Below the pieces are notes generated by a model. That model was not told where the DNA came from and searched no databases. It saw nothing but the letters and a program-made list of their open reading frames with translations. Below, piece after piece: positions 32,161-61,359 of a stretch of 64,000 bases of DNA. Numbering within the stretch: the first letter of the stretch is position 1; every line of letters starts with the position of its first letter. Position numbers and translations under genes: made by a program. Source of the stretch: Halorhodospira halochloris (GTDB taxonomy: Bacteria; Pseudomonadota; Gammaproteobacteria; Nitrococcales; Halorhodospiraceae); the NCBI RefSeq assembly GCF_002356555.2, contig NZ_AP017372.2, positions 806,001 through 870,000 of the forward strand, read 5' to 3'.

Positions 32161-32240
32161 TTTCTCGATTATTGTTCACTGCACAATAAATCGGATCGTT
32201 CCTCAGGCAGCAAACGGGTGGGTGTACTTTAGTGACTTCG

Positions 32241-33125
32241 ATGAGCCTGCAAATTGCGCTAGCCGGCGGCGTCATGGCCGCCCTGGGCGTATTATTGGCG
32301 GCAATTTTGGCAATTGCCAATCGCCGTCTGTACGTCTATGAGGATCCGCGCATTGACGAGCTCGAGGATATGTTACCACGCGCCAACTGCGGTGCTTGTG
32401 GGGTTGCAGGCTGTCGGCCATTTGCGGAGGCCCTTGTTGAAGGGCGCTTGGACCCGTCACGCTGCACCGCCAATTCCGAGGAGATGAATCAGGCAATCGC
32501 CAGCTTCCTCGGTGTGGATATGGGTAACAGGGAGCGCATTGTGGCTCGTCTGGCCTGTGCCGGTGGCACCCATGTGGCGGCGATGAGGGCCCGTTATCAG
32601 GGCTTGAAGTCGTGTCGAGCCGCGGCTCTTGTCGCTGGTGGTGGCAAGGGTTGCTCATGGGGCTGCCTAGGTCTGGGTGATTGCGAAGTCTCCTGCAAGT
32701 TTGATGCCATACGCCTTAATCGCTATGGACTGCCAGTGATCGATCCGAGCCGCTGCACGGCGTGCGGTGATTGTGTCGATGTTTGTCCAAAAGATTTACT
32801 CAGCCTGCAGCCTGAAAGTCATAGGCTGTGGGTCAACTGCCGCAACCAGGATCCGCAGGATGAGGCCATGGCTCAGTGCGAAGTCGTTTGTACTGGCTGT
32901 GGCCGCTGTGCTGCCGACGCCCCAGAAGGGCTTATTCGCATAGAGCGTAACCTCGCGGTTATTGATTACGAGAAAAATGCCCTGGCTTCGCCCGTTGCTA
33001 TTGAGCGTTGCCCCACAGGAGCCATTGTTTGGCTAGAAGGGGATAAACCACGCAAGGGGGCAGGGGCCCGTAAGATTATCCGCAAGGAGTCGCTGCCACG
33101 TATGGAGCCATTGCCCCGCGTTTAA
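32241..33125 (+). CDS. rnfB: Rnf electron transport complex subunit B
   Basis: Iron-sulfur subunit that accepts electrons from or gives electrons to ferredoxin on the cytoplasmic face. The N-terminal membrane helix (LQIALAGGVMAALGVLLAAI) is followed by the four-cysteine block ANCGACGVAGCRPFAEALVEG, GCSWGCLGLGDCEVSC, the ferredoxin motif CTACGDCVDVCP and a second one, CTGCGRCAADAP. In that last motif the usual fourth cysteine is replaced by alanine; C281-like ERCPTGAI supplies a further cysteine. ATG 32241 (MSLQIALAG) is used; GTG 32232 is the alternative. 294 residues, longer than E. coli RsxB. First gene of the operon. Confidence 0.93.
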   Translation: MSLQIALAGGVMAALGVLLAAILAIANRRLYVYEDPRIDELEDMLPRANCGACGVAGCRPFAEALVEGRLDPSRCTANSEEMNQAIASFLGVDMGNRERIVARLACAGGTHVAAMRARYQGLKSCRAAALVAGGGKGCSWGCLGLGDCEVSCKFDAIRLNRYGLPVIDPSRCTACGDCVDVCPKDLLSLQPESHRLWVNCRNQDPQDEAMAQCEVVCTGCGRCAADAPEGLIRIERNLAVIDYEKNALASPVAIERCPTGAIVWLEGDKPRKGAGARKIIRKESLPRMEPLPRV

Positions 33126-33265
33126 CGGGGTCGCGCGCAAGGCGAACACCACCGCCGGCCAACAAGCCGGTGGCAAGGTATGCCTCGCCTTGCTGCACGG
33201 GGCTTACTGAATCTGAATTGAAAAACTTTGGACGGCTTTTCGCGGCCGGCATAGAGGGAGGCGAC

Positions 33266-36200
33266 ATGCTCTTTAAACGCAAAATCTCGCCAGAGATGAT
33301 TAAATATCAGGGGCTTCGCGGCGCCATGGATGGGAATACCGCGATTATTCAATGTGAGCGTGAGGCATCAGATGCTGCCGGTGCCTATCCCATTACCCCT
33401 TCCACCGACATGGGTGAGATGTGGGCAGAAGAGGTCTCCAAGGGGCACATTAATATTTCCGGGCGGGCGCTAAAATTCATTGAGCCCGAGTCGGAGCACG
33501 CGGCAGCTGCGGTAACTGCCGGCTTGGCCATGACCGGCATGCGTGCAATCAACTTTTCCTCAGCGCAGGGCGTGGCGTTTATGCACGAATCGCTCTACGC
33601 CGCTGCCGGTAAGCGCCTGCCGTATATCCTCAATATCGGTTGCCGGGCCATAACCAAGGGCGCACTGAACGTCCACGCCGGCCACGACGACTACCACTGT
33701 ATTGACGATACCGGCTTTTTCCAGCTCTTTGCCAAGAACGCTCAGGAAGTTGCCGACCTCAATATCATTGCTCACAAGATAGCTGAGCTGGCCCTTAACC
33801 CGGGTGCGGTTGCCCAGGACGGCTTTCTGACTACCCACCTGATCGATTCTCTGCGCGTGCCGGAGCGTGAGCTCATTGCCGAGTATCTCGGGCGCCCGGA
33901 TGACTGGATCGAGTGCCCGACCCCAGCACAGCGTATGATCTTCGGCGATAAGCGCCGGCGTATCCCGGCGATTTGGGATGTCGATAACCCGATGCTCTCC
34001 GGTTCGGTGCAGAACCAGGACTCCTACATGCAGCAGGTCGCCGGGCAGCGACCCTATTTCTTCGATCACCTCACTGAGATCGCCGATAACTGCATGGAGG
34101 AGTTCTTCCTCTTGACCGGCAGGCCGTATCAGCGGGTCTCCGGCTACCGGGTTGATGATGCCGAATATCTGATTATGGGGCAGGGCAGCGTGGTCGCTAC
34201 TGCCGAGGCCATCGCCGATTATCTGCGCGAGACTCGGGGAATCGCGGTTGGCGTAGTTAACTTAACCATGTTCCGGCCGTTCCCAGGCGCGGAGTTGGCC
34301 GAATTGCTGCGCGGTCGTAAAGGGGTAGCGATCCTAGAGCGGGTAGATCAGCCTTTGGCCGAAGACCTGCCACTGGCGCGCGAGACCCGGGCGGCTTTGA
34401 CAAAGTGCCTGGAGAATCGGGTCGCCGGCAAGGGTAAGCCGTATCCCGACTATCCGGCCTTTAGCGGCGGTGAGATGCCGCGCATCTACTCGGCAGCATT
34501 TGGCCTCGGTTCCCGCGACCTGCAGCCGGAGGGGCTGATTGCAGCAGTCGAGAATATGCTCCCCGATGGTGAGCAGCGCACCTTCTTCTATCTGTCGGTC
34601 GATTTCGCCCGGCCCAATCCGGCGACGCCGAAGCAGGAACTGCATCAGCAGAATCTGCAAGAGGCCTATCCCGGGATCGAGAAGATGGCCCTGCGCGGCT
34701 CGGAAAACCCGAGTCTGCTGCCGGAAGGCTCGATTACTGCCCGGCTCCACTCGGTCGGTGGCTGGGGTGCCATGACCACCGGCAAGAACTTGGCTATGAC
34801 CTTGTTCGATTTGCTCGACTTCCACATCAAGGCCAACCCCAAGTATGGTTCGGAGAAGAAGGGTCAGCCGACCACCTACTATCTTGCCGCTGCCCCTGAG
34901 CCGATCCGGGTCAGCAGCGAGCTCAAAGAGGTTGAGGTGGTACTCTCCCCGGACCCGAACGTCTTCGACCACTCTAATCCATTGGCCGGTCTGGCCAAGG
35001 AGGGGGTGTTCATCATCCAGTCCAATCTCGACAGCCCTCAGGCGGTGTGGGAGAGCTTCCCCGCTGCTGCACAGCGCTATATCGTCGAGAACGATATCCG
35101 CGTCTTTTATCTCGATGCGTTCCAGATCGCCCGCGATGAGGCCTCGGATGCCGATCTGCAGTTTCGGATGCAGGGCATAGCGTTCCAAGGGGCATTTTTC
35201 GCCGCATCGCCACTTATGGAGCGCCGTGGACTGACACGTGAATCACTATTCCGGGCTATTGAGCAGCAGTTGCAAGAGAAGTTCGGCAGCAAAGGGGCTC
35301 GCGTGGTGGAGGATAACCTGCGGGTGGTGCGCCGTGGTTTCGATGAGATCCACGAGATTACCGCTAAGCAGTTAGGTGGTGAGGTTATCCCCGCCGGTGA
35401 GCAGAACCGCCTGCCGGAAATGCCGGTTATGCTCAAGCGGCTGCCGCAATCGCAGAATGCTAGCTCGGATATCCACCGCTTCTGGGAGCAGACCGGCAGT
35501 TTCTATGTCGCCGGGCAGGGTAGCGATAACCTCGTCGATCCGTTCATGGCCCAGTCGCTGATCCCGGCCTCGACCGGCATCTATCGGGACATGACGCAGG
35601 TGCGCTTTGAGTATCCGGCCTGGGATCCGAGCAAGTGTACCGCCTGCGGTGACTGCTACGCAGTCTGTCCGGATACCGCCTTGCCGGGTCTGGTAAACAC
35701 CATCGGCGAAGTCCTCGATACCGCGGTGCGGCGTATCGAGACCGGCGGTCGGCCGACCCGCCATCTGCGCCGCGCGGTTCGCGATCTTGAGAAGCGTTTG
35801 CGTAAGGCGTTGCTCGAGGTCGGGGAAGAGGCCGATGTGCGCGCTGAGCTCGATCGCTCGATCGCTGCCCTGCTCAGCGAGAGCGATCTGCAAGAGGGTG
35901 ATAAGCAGCGCTTAGAGGAGGAGCTGGGCTGGCTGCGCGAGAGCCTCGGCAGTTTCCAGTTCGCGGCTACCAAGCCGTTTTTCACCGCGCAGGAGAAACG
36001 TCAGCCAGGCAGTGGCGGGCTCTTTTCGCTGACCGTCAATCCTTATACCTGTAAAGGCTGTATGGAGTGCGTCAGCATCTGCGAAGAGGATGCCCTCGAA
36101 GCAGTCACACAGACACCTGAAGATGTCGAACGGATGCGCCAGCAGTGGGATTTCTGGCTCGACCTGCCCACTACCAAGCCGGATTACATCCGCATTGAGG

Positions 36201-38239
36201 ATATTAATGAGGGGATTGGTGCGCTAGAGACGCTTCTGCTCGATAAGAGTGCCTACAATTCGCTCAACTCAGGCGACGGTGCCTGCCTCGGCTGTGGTGA
36301 AAAGAGCGCGGTGCATCTGTTTACCGCTACAGTTACAGCCCTGATGCAGCCGCGGGTGAGAGAGCATGTGGCGAAACTCGACGATCTGATTAATCGCCTC
36401 GAGCAACATGTTCGCCTCAAGCTCGCCGACGGCATGGATCTGTCTGATTTCGGCGCCGTTAGCGAAGTGGTGGCGACGCACGCCGATAAGGATCTGACCC
36501 TCTCGCGGTTGTCGAGTGCACTCGATCAGGGCAGCGGGGCGCAGAATGTCGATCCCGATTGGCTGCGCTGGGTCAGCGGCTTATTGGCCAAGCTTAAGGA
36601 TCTGCGCTGGCGCTATGTCGAAGGTCCAACGGGGCGCGGTCGCGTTGACATGGGTATTATCAATGCGACTGGTTGTACCTCGGTATGGGGTAGTACCTAT
36701 CCCTATAACCCCTACCCGTTCCCGTGGACCAGCCACCTGTTCCAGGACAGCCCATCGATGGCCATCGGCATCTTTGAGGGGCATATGCAGAAGATGGCCG
36801 AAGGCTTTAAGGCCGTGCGCATGGCTGAGCTGGAGCTATCCGGCAAGTACGATCCGGCGACCCACGATGAGTTCTTCGCTCAGTTCAATTGGGAAATGTT
36901 CAGCGACGAGGAGTATGAACTCTGTCCGCCGGTGGTTAGCCTCGGTGGCGACGGGGCGATGTACGACATCGGCTTCCAGAACCTCTCGCGGGCTCTTATG
37001 TCAGGGTTGCCGATCAAGGTCCTGGTTCTCGATACGCAGGTCTACTCCAACACCGGCGGCCAGGCCTGTACCTCTGGTTTTATAAGCCAGGTCTCAGATA
37101 TGGCGCCGTACGGCAAGGCGTGGAAGGGTAAGGATGAGATCCGTAAGGAGATCAGTCTGATCGGCTTAGCGCACCGCACGAGCTACGTGGCGCAAGGGAC
37201 GATCAGCAACGTTACCCATCTGTTGGAGAGCTTTATTGAGGGTCTGAATACGCGCCGACCGGCGATATTTAACGTCTACGCCGTTTGTCCGCCAGAGCAC
37301 GGAGTTGGTGATGACGTTGCCTTCTTGCAGTCGAAGATGGCGGTTGAGTCACGCGCTTATCCGCTGTTCCGCTACAACCCGGATCGCGGTACCACCTTCC
37401 GTGAATGCAGCGATTTGGAGGGTAACCCGGACATTGAGCAAGATTGGCCAGAGTATACCCTGCGTTACCTCGATGATGATGGCAACGAGCAGAGCATGGA
37501 ACTACCCATGACCTTTGCCGACTTTGCCCTGACTGAGGGCCGCTTCCGCAAGCACTTCAAGCAGGTACCGCCGGAGAAGTGGAGTGATGAGATGATCCCC
37601 TTAGTTGAGCTGCTGGAGCTCTCTGAGGAGGATCGCGAGGGGCTGTTCCCTTACATCTGGGCGGTCGATAAGAATAACCGCCTGGTTAAGGTGATTGTCT
37701 CTGAGGAGTTGGTCCTCTCCACCGAGGAGCGGCGTGATTTCTGGTATCAGCTCAAGGGGCTGCTCGGGCTTGATAGGCAGGAGCCGAACGCTGAGCAGAT
37801 TGCGGCGCAGACCCGCCAAGAGATGGCGCAGCGGATAAGTGCTGCCCTGGTCTCTTTGGCAAGCGGTGAGGGGTCCGCTGATCTAGCCGCCAACTTGGAG
37901 CAAGCGCCGGCGCTGCCTAGCTCTGATGGTGGCGGTCAAGCGCAGGGGTCTGGCGGTGATTCTGCCCAGCCGGCTGGTTTGGACTGGGAGTATGAGCCGG
38001 TTTGGGTGGAGAGTAACGAGTGCACGGCTTGCGACGATTGTATAGACGTCGCCCCGGGGGTCTTTGCTTACGACGATAACAAGCAGGTTATCGTCAAAAA
38101 CCCCAAAGGGGCAGCGTTTAAGGACATAGTCAAGGCCGCGGAGAAGTGCTCGTCGTTTGCGATCCATCCGGGGACGCCGTTCGATCCTAACGAGCCGGGC
38201 CTCGATAAGCTCATGAAGCGGGCACAGAAGCTTAATTGA
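33266..38239 (+). CDS. Giant pyruvate/2-oxoacid:ferredoxin oxidoreductase with extra ferredoxin domain
   Basis: NifJ/PFOR-type enzyme interconverting pyruvate (or another 2-oxoacid) with acetyl-CoA, CO2 and reduced ferredoxin. The N-terminal domain has AYPITPSTDMGEMWAE; the gamma domain has VGGWGAMTTGKNLAMT. Two ferredoxin motifs, CTACGDCYAVCP (about residue 790) and CKGCMECVSICE (about 928), are split by a roughly 135-residue, Leu/Glu/Arg-rich helical stretch, far longer than usual. The thiamine domain has DGACLGCGEKSAVHLF, LGGDGAMYDIGFQNLSRAL and YSNTGGQACTSGF. After a Gly/Ser/Gln linker, the last 75 residues form an added ferredoxin (CTACDDCIDVAPGVFAYD). 1657 residues against about 1170-1200 in ordinary NifJ. 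ATG 33266 follows GGGAGG. Lying between rnfB and rnfC, it probably feeds Rnf or draws on it. Confidence 0.9.
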   Translation: MLFKRKISPEMIKYQGLRGAMDGNTAIIQCEREASDAAGAYPITPSTDMGEMWAEEVSKGHINISGRALKFIEPESEHAAAAVTAGLAMTGMRAINFSSAQGVAFMHESLYAAAGKRLPYILNIGCRAITKGALNVHAGHDDYHCIDDTGFFQLFAKNAQEVADLNIIAHKIAELALNPGAVAQDGFLTTHLIDSLRVPERELIAEYLGRPDDWIECPTPAQRMIFGDKRRRIPAIWDVDNPMLSGSVQNQDSYMQQVAGQRPYFFDHLTEIADNCMEEFFLLTGRPYQRVSGYRVDDAEYLIMGQGSVVATAEAIADYLRETRGIAVGVVNLTMFRPFPGAELAELLRGRKGVAILERVDQPLAEDLPLARETRAALTKCLENRVAGKGKPYPDYPAFSGGEMPRIYSAAFGLGSRDLQPEGLIAAVENMLPDGEQRTFFYLSVDFARPNPATPKQELHQQNLQEAYPGIEKMALRGSENPSLLPEGSITARLHSVGGWGAMTTGKNLAMTLFDLLDFHIKANPKYGSEKKGQPTTYYLAAAPEPIRVSSELKEVEVVLSPDPNVFDHSNPLAGLAKEGVFIIQSNLDSPQAVWESFPAAAQRYIVENDIRVFYLDAFQIARDEASDADLQFRMQGIAFQGAFFAASPLMERRGLTRESLFRAIEQQLQEKFGSKGARVVEDNLRVVRRGFDEIHEITAKQLGGEVIPAGEQNRLPEMPVMLKRLPQSQNASSDIHRFWEQTGSFYVAGQGSDNLVDPFMAQSLIPASTGIYRDMTQVRFEYPAWDPSKCTACGDCYAVCPDTALPGLVNTIGEVLDTAVRRIETGGRPTRHLRRAVRDLEKRLRKALLEVGEEADVRAELDRSIAALLSESDLQEGDKQRLEEELGWLRESLGSFQFAATKPFFTAQEKRQPGSGGLFSLTVNPYTCKGCMECVSICEEDALEAVTQTPEDVERMRQQWDFWLDLPTTKPDYIRIEDINEGIGALETLLLDKSAYNSLNSGDGACLGCGEKSAVHLFTATVTALMQPRVREHVAKLDDLINRLEQHVRLKLADGMDLSDFGAVSEVVATHADKDLTLSRLSSALDQGSGAQNVDPDWLRWVSGLLAKLKDLRWRYVEGPTGRGRVDMGIINATGCTSVWGSTYPYNPYPFPWTSHLFQDSPSMAIGIFEGHMQKMAEGFKAVRMAELELSGKYDPATHDEFFAQFNWEMFSDEEYELCPPVVSLGGDGAMYDIGFQNLSRALMSGLPIKVLVLDTQVYSNTGGQACTSGFISQVSDMAPYGKAWKGKDEIRKEISLIGLAHRTSYVAQGTISNVTHLLESFIEGLNTRRPAIFNVYAVCPPEHGVGDDVAFLQSKMAVESRAYPLFRYNPDRGTTFRECSDLEGNPDIEQDWPEYTLRYLDDDGNEQSMELPMTFADFALTEGRFRKHFKQVPPEKWSDEMIPLVELLELSEEDREGLFPYIWAVDKNNRLVKVIVSEELVLSTEERRDFWYQLKGLLGLDRQEPNAEQIAAQTRQEMAQRISAALVSLASGEGSADLAANLEQAPALPSSDGGGQAQGSGGDSAQPAGLDWEYEPVWVESNECTACDDCIDVAPGVFAYDDNKQVIVKNPKGAAFKDIVKAAEKCSSFAIHPGTPFDPNEPGLDKLMKRAQKLN

Positions 38240-38268: not shown

Positions 38269-39612
38269 ATGGGGCTTTTATCTTACTTGACAGGTCTTAC
38301 CTTTCCCCGGGGGGTGCATCCCCCCGGGTTAAAGGATGACACCCGCGAACTGCCCATTAGGCGCATGGCCTTCGCCCCGCGTATGGTGTTGCCTTTGGAT
38401 CAGCACTTCGGTCCAGCTGCGCGGGCCTTGGTGGCCAAAAACCAAGAGGTGGTGCGTGGCGAACCAATAGCCGAGGCTGTGGATGATGATTCCGTCCCTA
38501 TTCACTCCCCAGTGACCGGGACGGTTGAGGGCATTGAGCTGATGCCTACTGCCCGCGGACCTAAGGCTGAGGCAATTATCCTGCGTGCTGCACCAGGCGA
38601 CAGTCAGCACGTGCGGTGGGTAAAGCCGCAGGACCTGGCTAAGTGCAGTGCTCGCGAGCTGATTGAAGCTATTCAGCAAGCAGGCATTGTCGGCCAAGGC
38701 GGAGCGGCCTTTCCGACACACCGTAAGCTGCGGGTGCCTGATAAATATCCGGTCGATACGCTAGTGATCAACGGTTGTGAGTGTGAGCCTTATCTAACCG
38801 CTGATCACCGCATCATGCTTGAATATGGTCAAGATGTTATTGCTGGCATCCGCTTGGCAATGCGTGCGGTACGGGCTGAGCAGGCCATAATTGGAGTTGA
38901 GGATGACAAACCGGAAGCTATTGCAGCGTTGCGCGAGCATATCAAGGCTGACGATGCTATAAGCGTAGTAGAGGTGCGCAGCAAGTATCCGCAGGGCTCG
39001 GAAAAGATGCTGATCAAGGCCCTGCTAGACCGGGAGGTCCCCTCGGGGTGCTTTCCCTATCAGATCGGTGTAGTGGTCAATAACATCGGCACCATGGCCC
39101 AAATCGGCCAGCTCCTACCTCGCGGTCAAGGGTTGATTGAGCGGGTTATTACGGTCGCCGGGCCAGGCGTGGAAAAGCCTGGCAATTACATTGTTCCTAT
39201 CGGGACGCCGCTGCGTTATTTACTTGAGAGCGTTGGCTATCCTAAGGATGATCCGAGCCGGATAATCCTTGGCGGGCCGATGATGGGCAGTACTGTTGCA
39301 GCCCTTGATGTTCCGGTCACCAAAAGCATTTCGGGAGTTATAGTTCTGCCGGAGGGTAGTGAGCTGGATCCGGCGCCGCGGATCCAGCCGTGTATCCGTT
39401 GTGGTGACTGTGTGGACGTGTGTCCTGTGGGCCTTAATCCGGCCGACTTGGCAAGGCTAGCCGCAGCTCGTCAATATGAGGTGATGGAAGAAGAGTACAA
39501 TCTTAACGATTGCTTTGAGTGTGGCTGTTGCAGCTTCGTCTGTCCGTCGAATATCCCCCTTGTGCAGTACTTCAGAATTGCCAAATCCCTCAATCGGGAG
39601 CGAATGTCTTGA
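38269..39612 (+). CDS. rnfC: Rnf electron transport complex subunit C
   Basis: Flavin- and NADH-binding peripheral subunit, related to Complex I NuoF. It has GIVGQGGAAFPTHRKL (nucleotide and flavin loop), the NGCECEPYLTADHRIM block, YPQGSEKMLI and GGPMMGSTV. Two C-terminal motifs, CIRCGDCVDVCPVGLNP and CFECGCCSFVCPSNIP, bind two [4Fe-4S] clusters. 447 residues, short because the long alanine-rich C-terminal tail of E. coli RsxC is missing. ATG 38269 follows GAGAGGG. Confidence 0.95.
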   Translation: MGLLSYLTGLTFPRGVHPPGLKDDTRELPIRRMAFAPRMVLPLDQHFGPAARALVAKNQEVVRGEPIAEAVDDDSVPIHSPVTGTVEGIELMPTARGPKAEAIILRAAPGDSQHVRWVKPQDLAKCSARELIEAIQQAGIVGQGGAAFPTHRKLRVPDKYPVDTLVINGCECEPYLTADHRIMLEYGQDVIAGIRLAMRAVRAEQAIIGVEDDKPEAIAALREHIKADDAISVVEVRSKYPQGSEKMLIKALLDREVPSGCFPYQIGVVVNNIGTMAQIGQLLPRGQGLIERVITVAGPGVEKPGNYIVPIGTPLRYLLESVGYPKDDPSRIILGGPMMGSTVAALDVPVTKSISGVIVLPEGSELDPAPRIQPCIRCGDCVDVCPVGLNPADLARLAAARQYEVMEEEYNLNDCFECGCCSFVCPSNIPLVQYFRIAKSLNRERMS

Positions 39613-40628
39613 CTCCACCGCGGATCGAATTAAAAAGCTCGCCGCATATGAAGCAAGCGAGCAGCGTCGAGCAGATTATGCGCAACGTGGTCCTCGCGCT
39701 GCTGCCGGTTTGCGGTTTTGCGGTCTATCACTTCGGGATCAGCGCGCTGGCGTTGATGGCGACCACCACCTTGGTCTGTGTGCTGACCGAGCAGCTATTC
39801 ACTCGCCTCTCGGGTAAGCCTAGTACCATCAGCGACTACAGCGCGGTTATTACCGGGCTACTCCTCGCGTTGACTCTGCCGCCGGCGTTTCCTCTGTGGA
39901 TGGCAGCTCTATCAGGCTTCTTTGCCATATCCCTAGGCAAAATGCTGTTCGGCGGACTGGGCTTTAACCCGTTTAACCCAGCCCTGATTGGCCGAGCTTT
40001 TGCCACGGCTGCCTTCCCTGAGGCCTCGTCGACCTGGACTCAGGCAGGGCTGCCGGAGCGCTTTAGTGAGTTCCTCCCGTCTACGCTCGCGCTGCCCTTT
40101 ACCACGCCAGCCTCAGTCGATGCCTATACTACGGCAACGCCTCTTGGCGACTGGAAATTCGGGGACGTCCATGCTCCGGCTTGGGATCTTTTTACAGGCA
40201 TGACGCCGGGGTCATTGGGCGAAACCTCGGCCCTAATCATCCTGCTCGCAGGCCTCTACTTGATAGCCCGGCGGATGCTCGACTGGCGCATCCCGGCTGC
40301 TGTCCTGGGAGGGGCATTCGTTACGGCGGCGCTGTTCTATGCCGTTGATCCGGATCACTTCCCAACGCCCTGGTTTGTCTTGCTATCAGGCGGGATGATG
40401 TTGGGCGCGGTGTTCATGGCCAGCGATATGTCCTCCTCCCCGGTTACTCCGGCCGGGGTCTGGATTTATGGCCTATTGATAGGTTTTCTGGCGGTAATTA
40501 TTCGTTTCTTCGGTGGCTTGCCTGAGGGGGTCATGTACGCCATTTTGCTCGGCAACGCGATGGTTCCGCTGATTGAGCGCTATACCCAGCCGCGCACTTA
40601 CGGTAAGCGGGGCAGGAGGGGTGTATGA
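39609..40628 (+). CDS. rnfD: Rnf electron transport complex subunit D
   Basis: Membrane subunit carrying a covalently bound FMN. Typical N-terminus ELKSSPHMKQASSVEQIMRN, several membrane helices, and the flavinylation motif TTATPLG near residue 170 of the product. The TTG at 39609 overlapping the rnfC stop (TTGA) is chosen because the conserved SPH segment lies before the first ATG (39648). 339 residues. The following FGGLGFNPFNPALIGRAF block is family-typical. Confidence 0.94.
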   Translation: MTPPRIELKSSPHMKQASSVEQIMRNVVLALLPVCGFAVYHFGISALALMATTTLVCVLTEQLFTRLSGKPSTISDYSAVITGLLLALTLPPAFPLWMAALSGFFAISLGKMLFGGLGFNPFNPALIGRAFATAAFPEASSTWTQAGLPERFSEFLPSTLALPFTTPASVDAYTTATPLGDWKFGDVHAPAWDLFTGMTPGSLGETSALIILLAGLYLIARRMLDWRIPAAVLGGAFVTAALFYAVDPDHFPTPWFVLLSGGMMLGAVFMASDMSSSPVTPAGVWIYGLLIGFLAVIIRFFGGLPEGVMYAILLGNAMVPLIERYTQPRTYGKRGRRGV

Positions 40629-41320
40629 CTGAGCAGAACGGCACTAATCAGACAACCTCTCAACCAGCGCCGACATCAAGCGCTAAACTTATTGCCACCT
40701 TAGGCACTATTGCGTTTTTGTCCGGCCTGCTAGTAGTGACTGTAGTAGAAAGTACTCGCGAAGCGATTGAGGAGAACCACCGCATTGCCCTTGAAAGGGC
40801 AGTCTTCGATGTAATTCCCGGGGCGGAAAAACAGCGTACCTTCATTGTCACCGATGATGGTCTGGTCGACGCTGACAAAAACGATGTTGATGGTCAGGAG
40901 ATATACGCTGGCTATGATGCCGATGGCGTCCTGCAAGGTGTTGCTATTGAGGCCTCAGGTCGCGGCTACGAAGGGGAAATCCGTTTGCTCTACGGCTATC
41001 AACGGGAGAAGGAGAAGATTGTCGGTATGACCATCTTGGAGAGTCGCGAAACCCCCGGGCTAGGTGATCGGATTGAGACAGATGAGAGATTTCTCGCTTC
41101 TTTCGATGAGTTGCAGGCGGCGCTAGATGATGCCGGCAAGGGTCTGGCGCACGAGATAGTTACGGTCTCCCCAAGTGAGGCTGATCAGCCTGGTGAGATA
41201 GACGGAATCACCGGTGCCACGGTCTCTGCGGAGGCGGTAGGCAAGATCATTAATAGCAGCGCCAACGAGCTTCTGCCCTCGATTGCCCCGCATTGGGCGG
41301 ATATGGAAAGGGAGCAGTGA
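40625..41320 (+). CDS. rnfG: Rnf electron transport complex subunit G
   Basis: Periplasm-facing subunit with covalent FMN. One N-terminal membrane helix (LIATLGTIAFLSGLLVVTVV, residues 23-42) is followed by a soluble domain. ILESRETPGLGDRIE and the flavin-attachment motif DGITGATVSAEAV (near residue 200) are conserved; the modified Thr is in GAT. 231 residues. The ATG overlaps the rnfD stop by 4 bp. Attachment needs an ApbE-type transferase, which is not in this window. Confidence 0.95.
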   Translation: MTEQNGTNQTTSQPAPTSSAKLIATLGTIAFLSGLLVVTVVESTREAIEENHRIALERAVFDVIPGAEKQRTFIVTDDGLVDADKNDVDGQEIYAGYDADGVLQGVAIEASGRGYEGEIRLLYGYQREKEKIVGMTILESRETPGLGDRIETDERFLASFDELQAALDDAGKGLAHEIVTVSPSEADQPGEIDGITGATVSAEAVGKIINSSANELLPSIAPHWADMEREQ

Positions 41321-41985
41321 TGGCCTCCAAGAGTGATAAAACGCCGATAACCATGGACACCTTCCTTACTGGCTTATGGAAGGAGAATCCGGTCTTCGTC
41401 ATGCTCCTTGGCATGTGTCCGGTTCTGGCGGTTACCAACTCCGTGGAGAACGCCCTAGCTATGGGGCTGGCGACTACCTTTGTGTTGCTCTGTTCTACAG
41501 GAATGGTGTCGATCCTGCGTAGCTTGATCCCTAAAGAGGTTCGCATAGCCTCTTACATTGTAATTATTGCCACTTTTGTCACGGTAGTAGATTACATTAT
41601 CCACGCTGTCAGCCTGGAGATATACAATCAGCTAGGGGCCTTCATCCAGCTTATTGTGGTCAACTGCATGATATTGGGGCGGGCAGAGGCCTTTGCTTCC
41701 CGCAACCGCCTTAGTAAGACCCTGGTCAATTCGCTTGGCATGGGGGCTGGATTTACTTTTGCCCTGCTTTGTCTGGGCTCGGTAAGAGAGCTGTTAGGGT
41801 CTGGTGAGCTTCTCGGCTATCAAGTGTTTGGCGATTCATTCGAGCCGTGGATAATAATGCTTTTGCCTCCGGGTGGGTTTTTTGTGCTGGGTGGCTGGTT
41901 GTTGCTCTTTGCCTGGATAAAGGAGCGCCAACAGAACCGCGAGTCCCAAAAACGCGCTGATGAGGAGACTAGCCATGTCCGGTGA
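41320..41985 (+). CDS. rnfE: Rnf electron transport complex subunit E
   Basis: Integral membrane subunit that, with RnfA, carries the intramembrane [2Fe-2S] centre. The N-terminal ENPVFVMLLGMCPVLAVTNS block holds one of the cluster cysteines and VVNCMILGRAEAFASRN the other. Six hydrophobic segments. ATG 41320 overlaps the rnfG stop (TGATG), giving 221 residues; the longer frame from 41293 lies inside rnfG. Confidence 0.95.
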   Translation: MASKSDKTPITMDTFLTGLWKENPVFVMLLGMCPVLAVTNSVENALAMGLATTFVLLCSTGMVSILRSLIPKEVRIASYIVIIATFVTVVDYIIHAVSLEIYNQLGAFIQLIVVNCMILGRAEAFASRNRLSKTLVNSLGMGAGFTFALLCLGSVRELLGSGELLGYQVFGDSFEPWIIMLLPPGGFFVLGGWLLLFAWIKERQQNRESQKRADEETSHVR

Positions 41986-42556
41986 GTCGCTACCGTATAT
42001 TTTTCTCAATGCGGCGATAATAAATAACTTCGTTCTCGCGCTCTTTTTAGGGATATGTCCCATACTCGGTGTATCGGCCAAGCTGAGTACCGCATTCCCG
42101 ATGGGGGTGGCGACGGCCTTCGTGATGCTTATTGCATCAGTTTCGGCATGGCTCATTAATTTGGTGTTGGGTTATTTTGATCTGATGTTCTTGAGCCTTA
42201 TTGCCTATATAGCCGTTATAGCCTCGGCCGTACAATTGGTGGAGATGACCGTTAAGAAGTTTTCGCCGGCCCTCTACCAGGCCCTGGGCATCTTCTTGCC
42301 GCTAATCACCAGTAACTGTGCCATCCTTGGTGTGGCGCTATTCCAGACCAGCTATGAGTTCGATTTTCTGCAGTCTTTATTTTATAGCCTAGGCGCCGGG
42401 GCGGGTTTTATACTGGCCATTGTTCTTATGGCTGGTTTGCGTGAGCGGATCGATTTGGCAGACGTCCCCTCAATAGCCCGAGGGGCGGCAATGAGTTTGA
42501 TGCTGGCTGGGGTTTTGTCACTGGCATTTATGGGTTTTGCTGGGCTGGGCGGTTAA
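41975..42556 (+). CDS. rnfA: Rnf electron transport complex subunit A
   Basis: Membrane partner of RnfE, related to NqrE. Landmarks: NNFVLALFLGICPILGVSAK with one cluster cysteine, and LPLITSNCAILGVALF with the other. Six hydrophobic segments in 193 residues. ATG 41975 overlaps rnfE by 11 bp; the operon order B-(oxidoreductase)-C-D-G-E-A is reached here. Confidence 0.96.
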   Translation: MSGESLPYIFLNAAIINNFVLALFLGICPILGVSAKLSTAFPMGVATAFVMLIASVSAWLINLVLGYFDLMFLSLIAYIAVIASAVQLVEMTVKKFSPALYQALGIFLPLITSNCAILGVALFQTSYEFDFLQSLFYSLGAGAGFILAIVLMAGLRERIDLADVPSIARGAAMSLMLAGVLSLAFMGFAGLGG

Positions 42557-60090: not shown

Positions 60091-61359
60091 ATGCAAAAAG
60101 ATCAAGCAACGATCGAGCGGGAGTGGGCAGAGAGCCCACGTTGGCAAGGTGTTAAGCGCGGTTATGGCGCCGAAGAGGTTATCAGGCTGCGTGGTACGGT
60201 CCATGTAGAGTACTCACTTGCCCGCCAAGGAGCTGAGAAGCTGTGGCGGTATATGCATGAGATGCCGTATGTTAACGCCTTGGGTGCGTTGACCGGCAAC
60301 CAGGCCCTGCAACAAGTCAAGGCTGGCCTCAACGCGATATATCTGTCCGGTTGGCAGGTGGCGGCTGACGCCAACCTCGGCCAGACCATGTATCCGGACC
60401 AGTCACTCTACCCGGCCAACTCGGTACCGGCAGTGGTGGATCGCATAAACAACGCACTGTTGCGTGCCGATGAGATAAACCACGCCGAAGATAATCAGCC
60501 GTTTGATTTCATGAAGCCGATCGTGGCTGATGCCGAGGCGGGTTTCGGTGGCGTGTTGAATGCATTTGAGCTGATGAAGGGCATGATCAGGGCAGGTGCG
60601 GCCGGAGTCCACTTCGAAGATCAGCTCGCTTCGGTGAAAAAGTGCGGCCACATGGGTGGTAAGGTACTGCTGCCGACCCAAGAGGCGGTACACAAGCTGA
60701 TCGCTGCTCGCCTCGCAGCTGACACTATGGATGTGCCTACGGTTCTGGTAGCCAGGACCGATGCCGAGGCGGCAGACCTGTTGACCTCTGATGTGGATGA
60801 TAACGACAAGCCGTTCATTACCGGTGATCGCACGGCGGAGGGCTTCTTCCGTACCAAGCCGGGCATCGATCAGGCCATCAGCCGCGGACTGGCCTATGCG
60901 CCTTACGCCGACGTGATTTGGTGTGAGACCGGTAAGCCTGATTTGGGCTTCGCCCGCGACTTTGCCCAGGCCATACATGAGAAGTTCCCGGGCAAGTTGC
61001 TCGCCTACAACTGCTCACCATCATTTAACTGGGCTGGCAACCTGGACGATAAGACTATCCGTAAGTTCCAAGATGAGCTCGGGGCAATGGGCTTTAAGTT
61101 CCAGTTCATTACGCTGGCCGGCTTCCACTCCCTCAACTACTCGATGTTTGAGTTGGCGCGCGGTTACAAAGAGCGGCAGATGGAGGCCTACTCCGAGCTG
61201 CAGCAAGCTGAGTTCGCCGCCGAAAAGTACGGTTACACTGCCACACGTCACCAACGTGAGGTCGGTGCCGGTTACTTTGATGAGGTAACCAACGTAATCC
61301 AAGGCGGCCAATCGTCGGTAACTGCACTCAAGGGTTCGACCGAAGAAGAGCAGTTCTAA
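60091..61359 (+). CDS. aceA: Isocitrate lyase
   Basis: Cleaves isocitrate to glyoxylate and succinate, first step of the glyoxylate shunt, allowing growth on acetate. The catalytic [17 protein letters not shown] block and the [11 protein letters not shown] (metal-binding), [29 protein letters not shown] and [11 protein letters not shown] blocks are all clear. 422 residues. ATG 60091 lies nine bases after GGAG (60078-60081). Transcribed away from the LysR gene; ends at a strong terminator. Malate synthase is not in the window. Confidence 0.97.

Follow-up and report, generated by a model that had tools for sequence, protein, structure and literature searches.

The system closest to the one reported here was described in the Solemya velum symbiont, where a gene for pyruvate:ferredoxin oxidoreductase (PFOR) lies between rnfB2 and rnfC2 and pyruvate was proposed as electron donor (Dmytrenko et al. 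2014, PMC4287430). We analyzed a 64,000-nucleotide stretch of Halorhodospira halochloris (NZ_AP017372.2, positions 806,001 to 870,000; hereafter the window), which carries the same system: a giant PFOR gene between rnfB and rnfC, with the gill symbiont protein 65% identical to it. The available portion of the S. velum account covers adjacency and the pyruvate donor and mentions neither the size of the protein nor its tail, its conservation across phyla or a catalytically dead sister form. The Allochromatium genome paper, in the part available, counts three rnf clusters in that organism as well as in Halorhodospira halophila and calls their role entirely unclear (PMC3368242). In tubeworm symbionts, a reductive tricarboxylic acid (TCA) cluster has Hdr-Flx genes interspersed with korABCD/tfrAB, along with pntAB and rnfABCDGE, so that a 2-oxoacid oxidoreductase, Rnf and electron-transfer genes stand together, and its authors considered direct electron delivery to the 2-oxoglutarate oxidoreductase. 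That delivery, however, comes from Hdr-Flx rather than Rnf, the oxidoreductase has four subunits, and no PFOR-derived scaffold is mentioned in the available text (PMC6315080).

We propose, with a probability of roughly 0.7, that the giant PFOR is an electron scaffold that plugs a 2-oxoacid oxidoreductase into Rnf, giving one electron line and a reversible, ion-coupled pyruvate/NAD system. Adjacency of PFOR and rnf in one genome was already known (PMC4287430). As far as the texts were available, the open-access literature searched describes no other PFOR between rnf genes; the giant architecture, the cross-phylum linkage, the matching Rnf lineage and the dead PFOR/KorAB operon are likewise not described there and appear to be new.

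Architecture and synteny of the giant PFOR

One-chain PFORs (NifJ; Moorella, 6cin; Desulfovibrio africanus, 1b0p) were the top fold matches of the protein and share with it the domain order and the residues of the thiamine pyrophosphate (TPP) site, the proximal cluster and the two-cluster ferredoxin domain. They have about 1170-1230 residues, whereas the giant protein has 1657, with two inserts, a C-terminal extension and a tail ferredoxin in addition. Its ATG start is preceded by AGGGAGGCGAC; an alternative GTG start at 33170 would give 1689 residues. The Pfam order is POR_N, PFOR_II, POR, two 4Fe-4S motifs, TPP_enzyme_C and a Fer4_13 tail, and the scores (bits/Pfam cut-off: POR_N 154.6/27, PFOR_II 50.8/27, POR 103.8/27.4, TPP_enzyme_C 32.8/21.9) place it in the 2-oxoacid:acceptor oxidoreductase superfamily. 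Against the NifJ equivalog model TIGR02176 it scores 401.1 bits, below the curated cut-off of 911.35; it is not classed as a NifJ equivalog, although its function is probably the same.

The spacing between the two ferredoxin motifs is 129 residues; in four ordinary PFORs its median is 47. The TPP-binding part is enlarged as well: its stretch from C1010 to C1137 has 128 residues versus 26 in the same four proteins. In an AlphaFold2 model of residues 480-1657 (mean predicted local distance difference test score, pLDDT, 77.9; predicted template modeling score 0.77), both inserts are helical and the linker before the tail is of low confidence. In the fold search the tail matched D. africanus ferredoxin I (1fxr), with a template modeling (TM) score of 0.86 by target length, a root-mean-square deviation of 0.6 A over 58 columns and an E value of 0.04; together with four cysteines and a Fer4_13 score of 32.9 bits (cut-off 24.5), this identifies a single-cluster ferredoxin. 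Among the 50 matches listed in the fold search were PFORs and ferredoxin I, and none could be assigned to the inserts. An earlier note on this DNA, made from the letters alone, had described a 1657-residue PFOR between rnfB and rnfC with an enlarged helical insert between its ferredoxin motifs and an extra C-terminal ferredoxin on a flexible linker. Reading frame, domains, neighboring genes and predicted structure bear out each of these points, and add the second insert, which the note had not mentioned; the complete motif also answers its worry that the tail might lack a cluster.

To describe the surroundings of the gene, we kept the best 80 of at least 578 relatives found in a genome scan and added Gemmatirosa and Persicobacter from a plasmid collection, giving 82 loci (clade A); residues were compared in 85 sequences, namely these 82, two more and the window. 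The rnfB gene lies directly upstream of the giant PFOR in 76 of the 78 loci with 700 bases of flank, rnfC lies downstream in all 73 with 500 bases, and rnfC-D-G-E-A is complete in 49/51 loci with 7.5 kb downstream. Because rnfB and rnfC adjoin at these frequencies, the rnfB-PFOR-rnfC order is not due to chance. The exceptions are L081, with no rnfB seen, L088, without E and A, L089, without G, and Persicobacter, in which rnfB stands behind rnfA and a megaplasmid of 1.07 Mb carries the PFOR-Rnf operon (L022, 17003-23991). By record title, these loci span nine phyla: Pseudomonadota, Bacteroidota, Verrucomicrobiota, Kiritimatiellae, Acidobacteriota, Hydrogenedentota, Calditrichota, Myxococcota and Gemmatimonadota (Gemmatirosa); many are metagenome-assembled genomes, for which mis-binning is possible.

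The TPP, substrate and cluster residues align with their equivalents in solved PFORs. E73, R127, N1262 and 12 core cluster cysteines are kept in 85/85 giant sequences and in 4/4 ordinary PFORs. We take E73 to be the TPP-activating glutamate and R127 and N1262 to lie in the pyruvate site, and the site residues are compatible with pyruvate as substrate. The four tail cysteines are kept in 84, 85, 84 and 84 of the 85 sequences, in order. The only row without an in-frame tail motif is that of the S. velum symbiont (L090, 10001-14906), where the frame breaks before the tail ferredoxin and the tail is encoded in another frame.

A protein 86% identical occurs in a genome of the same genus (G002), and the query protein (P0001) found matches at E<=1e-200 in 3 of 398 genomes of the host phylum, its own included; rnfC at E<=1e-60 was found in 71 of 120. 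Rnf is thus common and the giant PFOR rare in the host phylum. In the host family, 9 of 12 genomes carry the giant PFOR, all of one genus and two of them in pieces.

Sister clades and the RnfC lineage

In a PFOR tree (built without B_L154 and E_L187, whose longest frames were on the wrong strand), clade A grouped with two others, A' and C, with a Shimodaira-Hasegawa-like approximate likelihood ratio test (SH-aLRT) support of 99; clades B and D fell outside, and ordinary PFORs and clade E lay across the midpoint root. The two wrong-strand rows are also why the comparison behind the insert medians has 7 of 8 for clade B and 2 of 3 for clade E. Wider searches had matches in 87/146 genomes of the Thiocapsa family (Chromatiaceae), at E<=1e-100, and in 25/297 genomes of the phylum of an Acidobacteriota genome.

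Clade C is a sister clade whose protein, PFOR', is about 30% identical to the giant PFOR and is encoded in an operon korA-korB-X-rnfB-PFOR'. We fetched 26 of about 29 long candidates from the Thiocapsa family (all but G525, G496 and G476). The frame is open over 1504-1560 residues in 26/26. PFOR' follows rnfB on the same strand in every case, at a distance of up to 0.4 kb in 24, of 0.8 kb in L234 and of 1.8 kb in L173; korA-korB-X precedes rnfB in 18 loci, X is cut by the contig end in L232, and the contig ends at rnfB in L172. Within 0.2 kb after PFOR', rnfC is found in 11 of the 25 testable loci (L234 ends too early). The KorA of L171 scores over the TIGR03710 cut-off (492.6/482.75), and its KorB is PorB/KorB-like, at 230 bits versus 262.

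In PFOR' the two-cluster ferredoxin domain retains its eight cysteines in 26/26 sequences. In the same sequences C1007 is replaced by Glu in 26/26 and C1341 by Ser in 25/26, T44 is gone in 26/26, and the NTGGQ motif is present in 0/26, against 85/85 in clade A; the column of N1262 depends on the alignment (G, gap or L), the absence of NTGGQ does not. As judged from these residues, PFOR' has lost its active site in all 26 Chromatiaceae members and retained both ferredoxin clusters. The protein X, examined in 19 loci (L190, L226, L238 and the truncated X of L232 and L293 are not among them), has 786-1346 residues and a TPP-like part. It lacks D1229 and the four proximal-cluster cysteines in 19/19, and its tail ferredoxin keeps all four cysteines in 19/19. 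A lineage that has dropped the chemistry and kept the wire is the best evidence that the scaffold would serve electron transfer to Rnf.

The korA-korB-X-rnfB-PFOR' operon also occurs in Acidobacteriota (L290, partly L293, and G723) and in Calditrichota (L291 and L292). Among four dead homologues outside Chromatiaceae that cover the motifs, three keep the eight cysteines (L290, L291 and L293). We note the loci in which korA-korB-X-rnfB-dead PFOR is followed by rnfC directly or after up to 2.7 kb: L171 (3491-18583, minus strand), L174, L225-L231, L235, L239-L241, L290, L291 and L292. In G723 the dead-PFOR gene is in two pieces about 0.87 Mb apart (L294 and L285), its N-terminal half next to korAB-X-rnfB and its C-terminal half next to rnfC-D-G-E-A, through either a rearrangement or an assembly error. 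A 'PFOR-like' gene and korAB(3) of Endoriftia, whose expression falls jointly according to the available part of one report (PMC11636981), may be a clade C operon; we did not use them as evidence.

The RnfC partner of the scaffold forms a lineage of its own. Our first, larger RnfC tree contained 109 rows, thinned from 138 to below 80% identity; there the A-linked and C-linked RnfC form one 67-row clade (100) together with L101_415 and L255, which in that tree bore the labels unlinked or A'-genome; the other two RnfC of the host genome lie outside it. In a second tree the A-linked side was represented by every third row plus up to six chosen ones, L101_415 and L255 were counted as C-linked, as a dead PFOR homologue precedes each, and L108 (long) and 14 further unlinked rows, L106 among them, were left out. 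The 36 scaffold-linked rows, of A and C type together, again group in a single clade (100/100); the 33 unlinked rows, which come from proteobacteria, Clostridia, Fusobacterium and Bacteroides, lie outside it. Monophyly of A-linked RnfC including Gemmatirosa (L023) is weak (90/12). For 47 unlinked rnfC loci, the short flanking stretches (about 1.5 kb) contained no PFOR-like gene. Thiocapsa-family genomes carry up to four rnfC copies, in separate RnfC clades.

The remaining clades separate the inserts from the tail. Clade A' is about 52% identical and has the tail; rnfC is present in 3/3 A' genomes, and the RnfC of the one genome included in the trees falls within the scaffold-linked lineage. 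In clade B (35-39% identical) the two inserts are present, with medians of 124 and 132 residues, and the tail is missing; in 12 of the 14 B-type genomes we searched for rnfC at E<=1e-60 and found it in none (0/12). The B loci, L152-L163 and L181-L185, come from the phylum of an Acidobacteriota genome. Clade D, about 38% identical, has the tail and an intact site in 5/5; a fused Nfn-like gene (PRK12779, scored for L176) adjoins the PFOR in 4/5 loci (L176, 4725-12796, minus strand; L177, L179 and L180), so that clade D offers a further case of a PFOR with an NAD(P)-linked ferredoxin partner. Clade E proteins have about 1200 residues and no tail, and rnfC was found in 0/3 of their genomes. The two inserts of clade B occur in genomes where the search for rnfC found nothing (12/12), and so are not specific to Rnf; they are shared across the giant family, and the tail accompanies an NAD(P)-linked partner, Rnf or Nfn-like. 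We therefore rejected the insert as a specific Rnf-docking signature; the helical insert that the earlier note described is not an Rnf feature. The note had also reasoned that its idea would suffer if the large form were common in genomes without rnf, which is in part the case, for tail-less clade B; genomes with the tailed A' do have rnfC. Its central proposal, a dedicated electron path between PFOR and Rnf, gains support from the surveyed linkage of rnfB and rnfC to the PFOR, the grouping of A, A' and C away from standard PFORs, the separate RnfC lineage and the dead forms that keep their clusters in Chromatiaceae and in 3/4 homologues elsewhere.

The operon and other Rnf loci of the host genome

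All six subunit genes of the Rnf complex (RnfABCDGE) were recognized in the operon (Table 1), five of them above their subfamily cut-offs and rnfG slightly below, in the order B-PFOR-C-D-G-E-A, and the predicted function of this Rnf is ion-coupled ferredoxin:NAD oxidoreductase activity. The host genome, one contig of 2,834,560 bases, has three rnf operons. A second lies beside nifB, nifV, nifM and nifH (L111, 2794-16299; genome positions 1284793-1298298) and is probably a nitrogenase-linked Rnf. The third, near argG and mgtE, has a long RnfC; the label Rsx-like for it is our own. The three look specialized. The sole other POR_N match in the genome is IorA-like. The window also contains an isocitrate lyase gene (60109-61356, plus strand), and the glyoxylate shunt may be available.

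Table 1. Features of the PFOR-Rnf operon, in window coordinates; scores for rnf genes are NCBIfam subfamily bits/cut-off
Feature	Position	Strand	Basis
rnfB, 297 residues, polyferredoxin form, GTG start as listed (86.1/68.7)	32232..33125	+	NCBIfam
Giant PFOR, 1657 residues	33266..38239	+	open reading frame listing, Pfam, NCBIfam
Domain I, POR_N (T44, E73, R127)	33365..34057	+	Pfam, alignment
POR gamma-like domain	34757..35344	+	Pfam
Ferredoxin motif A, C791-C801 (CxxCxxCxxxCP)	35636..35668	+	sequence, alignment
Insert 1, predicted helices, residues ~813-894	35702..35947	+	alignment, predicted structure
Ferredoxin motif B, C929-C939	36050..36082	+	sequence, alignment
Insert 2, predicted helices in TPP part, residues ~1020-1125	36323..36640	+	alignment, predicted structure
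TPP_enzyme_C domain (GDG, NTGGQ; cluster ligand C1341 just downstream)	36929..37273	+	Pfam, alignment
Flexible linker, low pLDDT	37895..37981	+	predicted structure
C-terminal single [4Fe-4S] ferredoxin (Fer4_13; C1586, C1589, C1592, C1628)	38006..38167	+	Pfam, alignment, fold search
rnfC, 447 residues, short form (501.5/245.95)	38269..39612	+	NCBIfam
rnfD, in-frame ATG after rnfC, start uncertain (324.7/207.05)	39648..40628	+	NCBIfam
rnfG, 4-base overlap with rnfD (98.3/102, slightly under cut-off)	40625..41320	+	NCBIfam
rnfE, ATG start chosen (233.9/213.4)	41320..41985	+	NCBIfam
rnfA (232.8/229.3)	41960..42556	+	NCBIfam

Proposed mechanism and rival explanations

In the mechanism that we propose, giant PFOR and Rnf would form a physical complex through which electrons could pass in either direction, in the order pyruvate and coenzyme A (CoA), TPP site, proximal [4Fe-4S] cluster, the two ferredoxin-domain clusters, tethered tail, RnfB/RnfC and NAD, and Rnf would move ions across the membrane coupled to this line. 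The giant body (ferredoxin domain, tail and probably the inserts) would act as electron and docking scaffold. The net effect would be a reversible, ion-coupled pyruvate dehydrogenase/pyruvate synthase that needs no pool of diffusible ferredoxin. The scaffold of the sister operon, which has lost catalysis, would connect a separate KorAB enzyme to Rnf in the same way. Running oxidatively, the system would conserve energy that pyruvate dehydrogenase wastes; running reductively, ion-motive force would lift electrons of NADH, and acetyl-CoA and CO2 would be converted to pyruvate.

Because ferredoxin is not directly reduced in phototrophs of this kind, we lean towards reductive running much of the time in this salt-loving purple bacterium, which we consider slightly more probable than oxidation; this is a lean and not a result. 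We surveyed 25 genomes, chosen by us rather than drawn at random, and found pyruvate dehydrogenase E1 (aceE over the cut-off) in 24 and isocitrate lyase in 19, this window included. We accordingly rejected two reasons for the existence of the system, (i) a missing pyruvate dehydrogenase and (ii) a missing glyoxylate shunt that would force pyruvate synthesis.

Several observations weigh against the scaffold proposal. Gene adjacency alone can reflect mere co-regulation, and the same survey indicates that neither direction is obligatory. The A' PFORs, whose loci come partly from genomes already in the synteny set, keep the tail yet have no rnf gene in the adjoining 1.5 kb; in the one locus that was fetched, none lies within about 7 kb either. 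Six clade C loci have no korAB-X nearby (L173, L233, L234 with only 1.5 kb left, and L242-L244). Beyond the 11 of 25 loci in which rnfC is close to PFOR', seven have it 1.0-2.7 kb away, one (L244) has it in inverted orientation, and in six (L175, L190, L236-L238 and L243) the 4-7 kb downstream showed no rnfC. Some site residues persist in clade C (R127 in 16/26, E73 in 5, D1229 in 5), an Asn aligns with N1262 in 15/19 X, and the dead homologue of L292 (Calditrichota) has lost the ferredoxin motifs too.

Among the rival explanations, the strongest, though one we hold to be less than even, follows Dmytrenko et al. (2014): the system would mainly oxidize pyruvate and Rnf would store the drop to NAD as an ion gradient, in keeping with the donor role proposed, in the available part of that paper, for the S. 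velum symbiont (PMC4287430). It overlaps with the scaffold proposal, so that the odds of the two are not additive, and the near-universal pyruvate dehydrogenase E1 in the surveyed genomes (24/25) speaks against it. Clade A is found in likely heterotrophs as well, for example Persicobacter, which we presume to live heterotrophically, as oxidation would have it; in phototrophic and thiotrophic hosts with quinone-type energy metabolism, however, low-potential reductant is scarce, and reverse Rnf would be useful.

Co-regulation only is a less likely account, in which an ordinary soluble PFOR and Rnf are the two co-expressed ends of a pathway through diffusible ferredoxin, and the tail merely raises the local ferredoxin concentration. 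Ordinary PFORs do donate electrons to free ferredoxin, and the A' PFORs stand away from rnf, both as this account would have it. Yet it does not lead one to expect a slot between rnfB and rnfC kept across phyla or an RnfC partner that is a lineage of its own, and co-regulation of an enzyme gives no account of dead, cluster-keeping versions that remain after rnfB. Nitrogen fixation, with the PFOR reducing ferredoxin in a NifJ-like manner and Rnf adding more for nitrogenase, would agree with the support of nitrogenase by Rnf in Rhodobacter (cited in the available part of PMC3368242), but another rnf operon of this genome is the one beside the nif genes, and we consider this highly improbable. 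Least probable of all is that the clade C genes are decaying pseudogenes, retained in the operon by chance and uninformative on wiring: their long branches, more divergent than clade A, and the loss of ferredoxin motifs in L292 would fit decay, whereas the frames open in 26/26, the eight cysteines kept while catalytic residues vary and the intact X tails (19/19) do not.

We retain the scaffold proposal. In its widest form, to which we give even odds, a distinct Rnf lineage would have a PFOR-derived scaffold as constitutive partner: with an active site it would be an ion-pumping or ion-driven, NAD-linked pyruvate dehydrogenase/synthase, and with the site lost and X added it would plug KorAB into Rnf. 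Both operons occur together in some bacteria, which could then drive the two ferredoxin-dependent carboxylations of the reductive TCA route from NADH and ion-motive force. The wiring idea can be tested directly on the dead sister form. If the proposal is true, an enzyme of carbon metabolism would be an integral part of a respiratory ion pump. Energy otherwise dissipated by ordinary pyruvate dehydrogenase could then be conserved, or CO2 could be fixed into pyruvate at the expense of ion-motive force, with no need for a free pool of low-potential ferredoxin. The proposal also offers a definite function for one of the three rnf clusters that purple sulfur bacteria carry.

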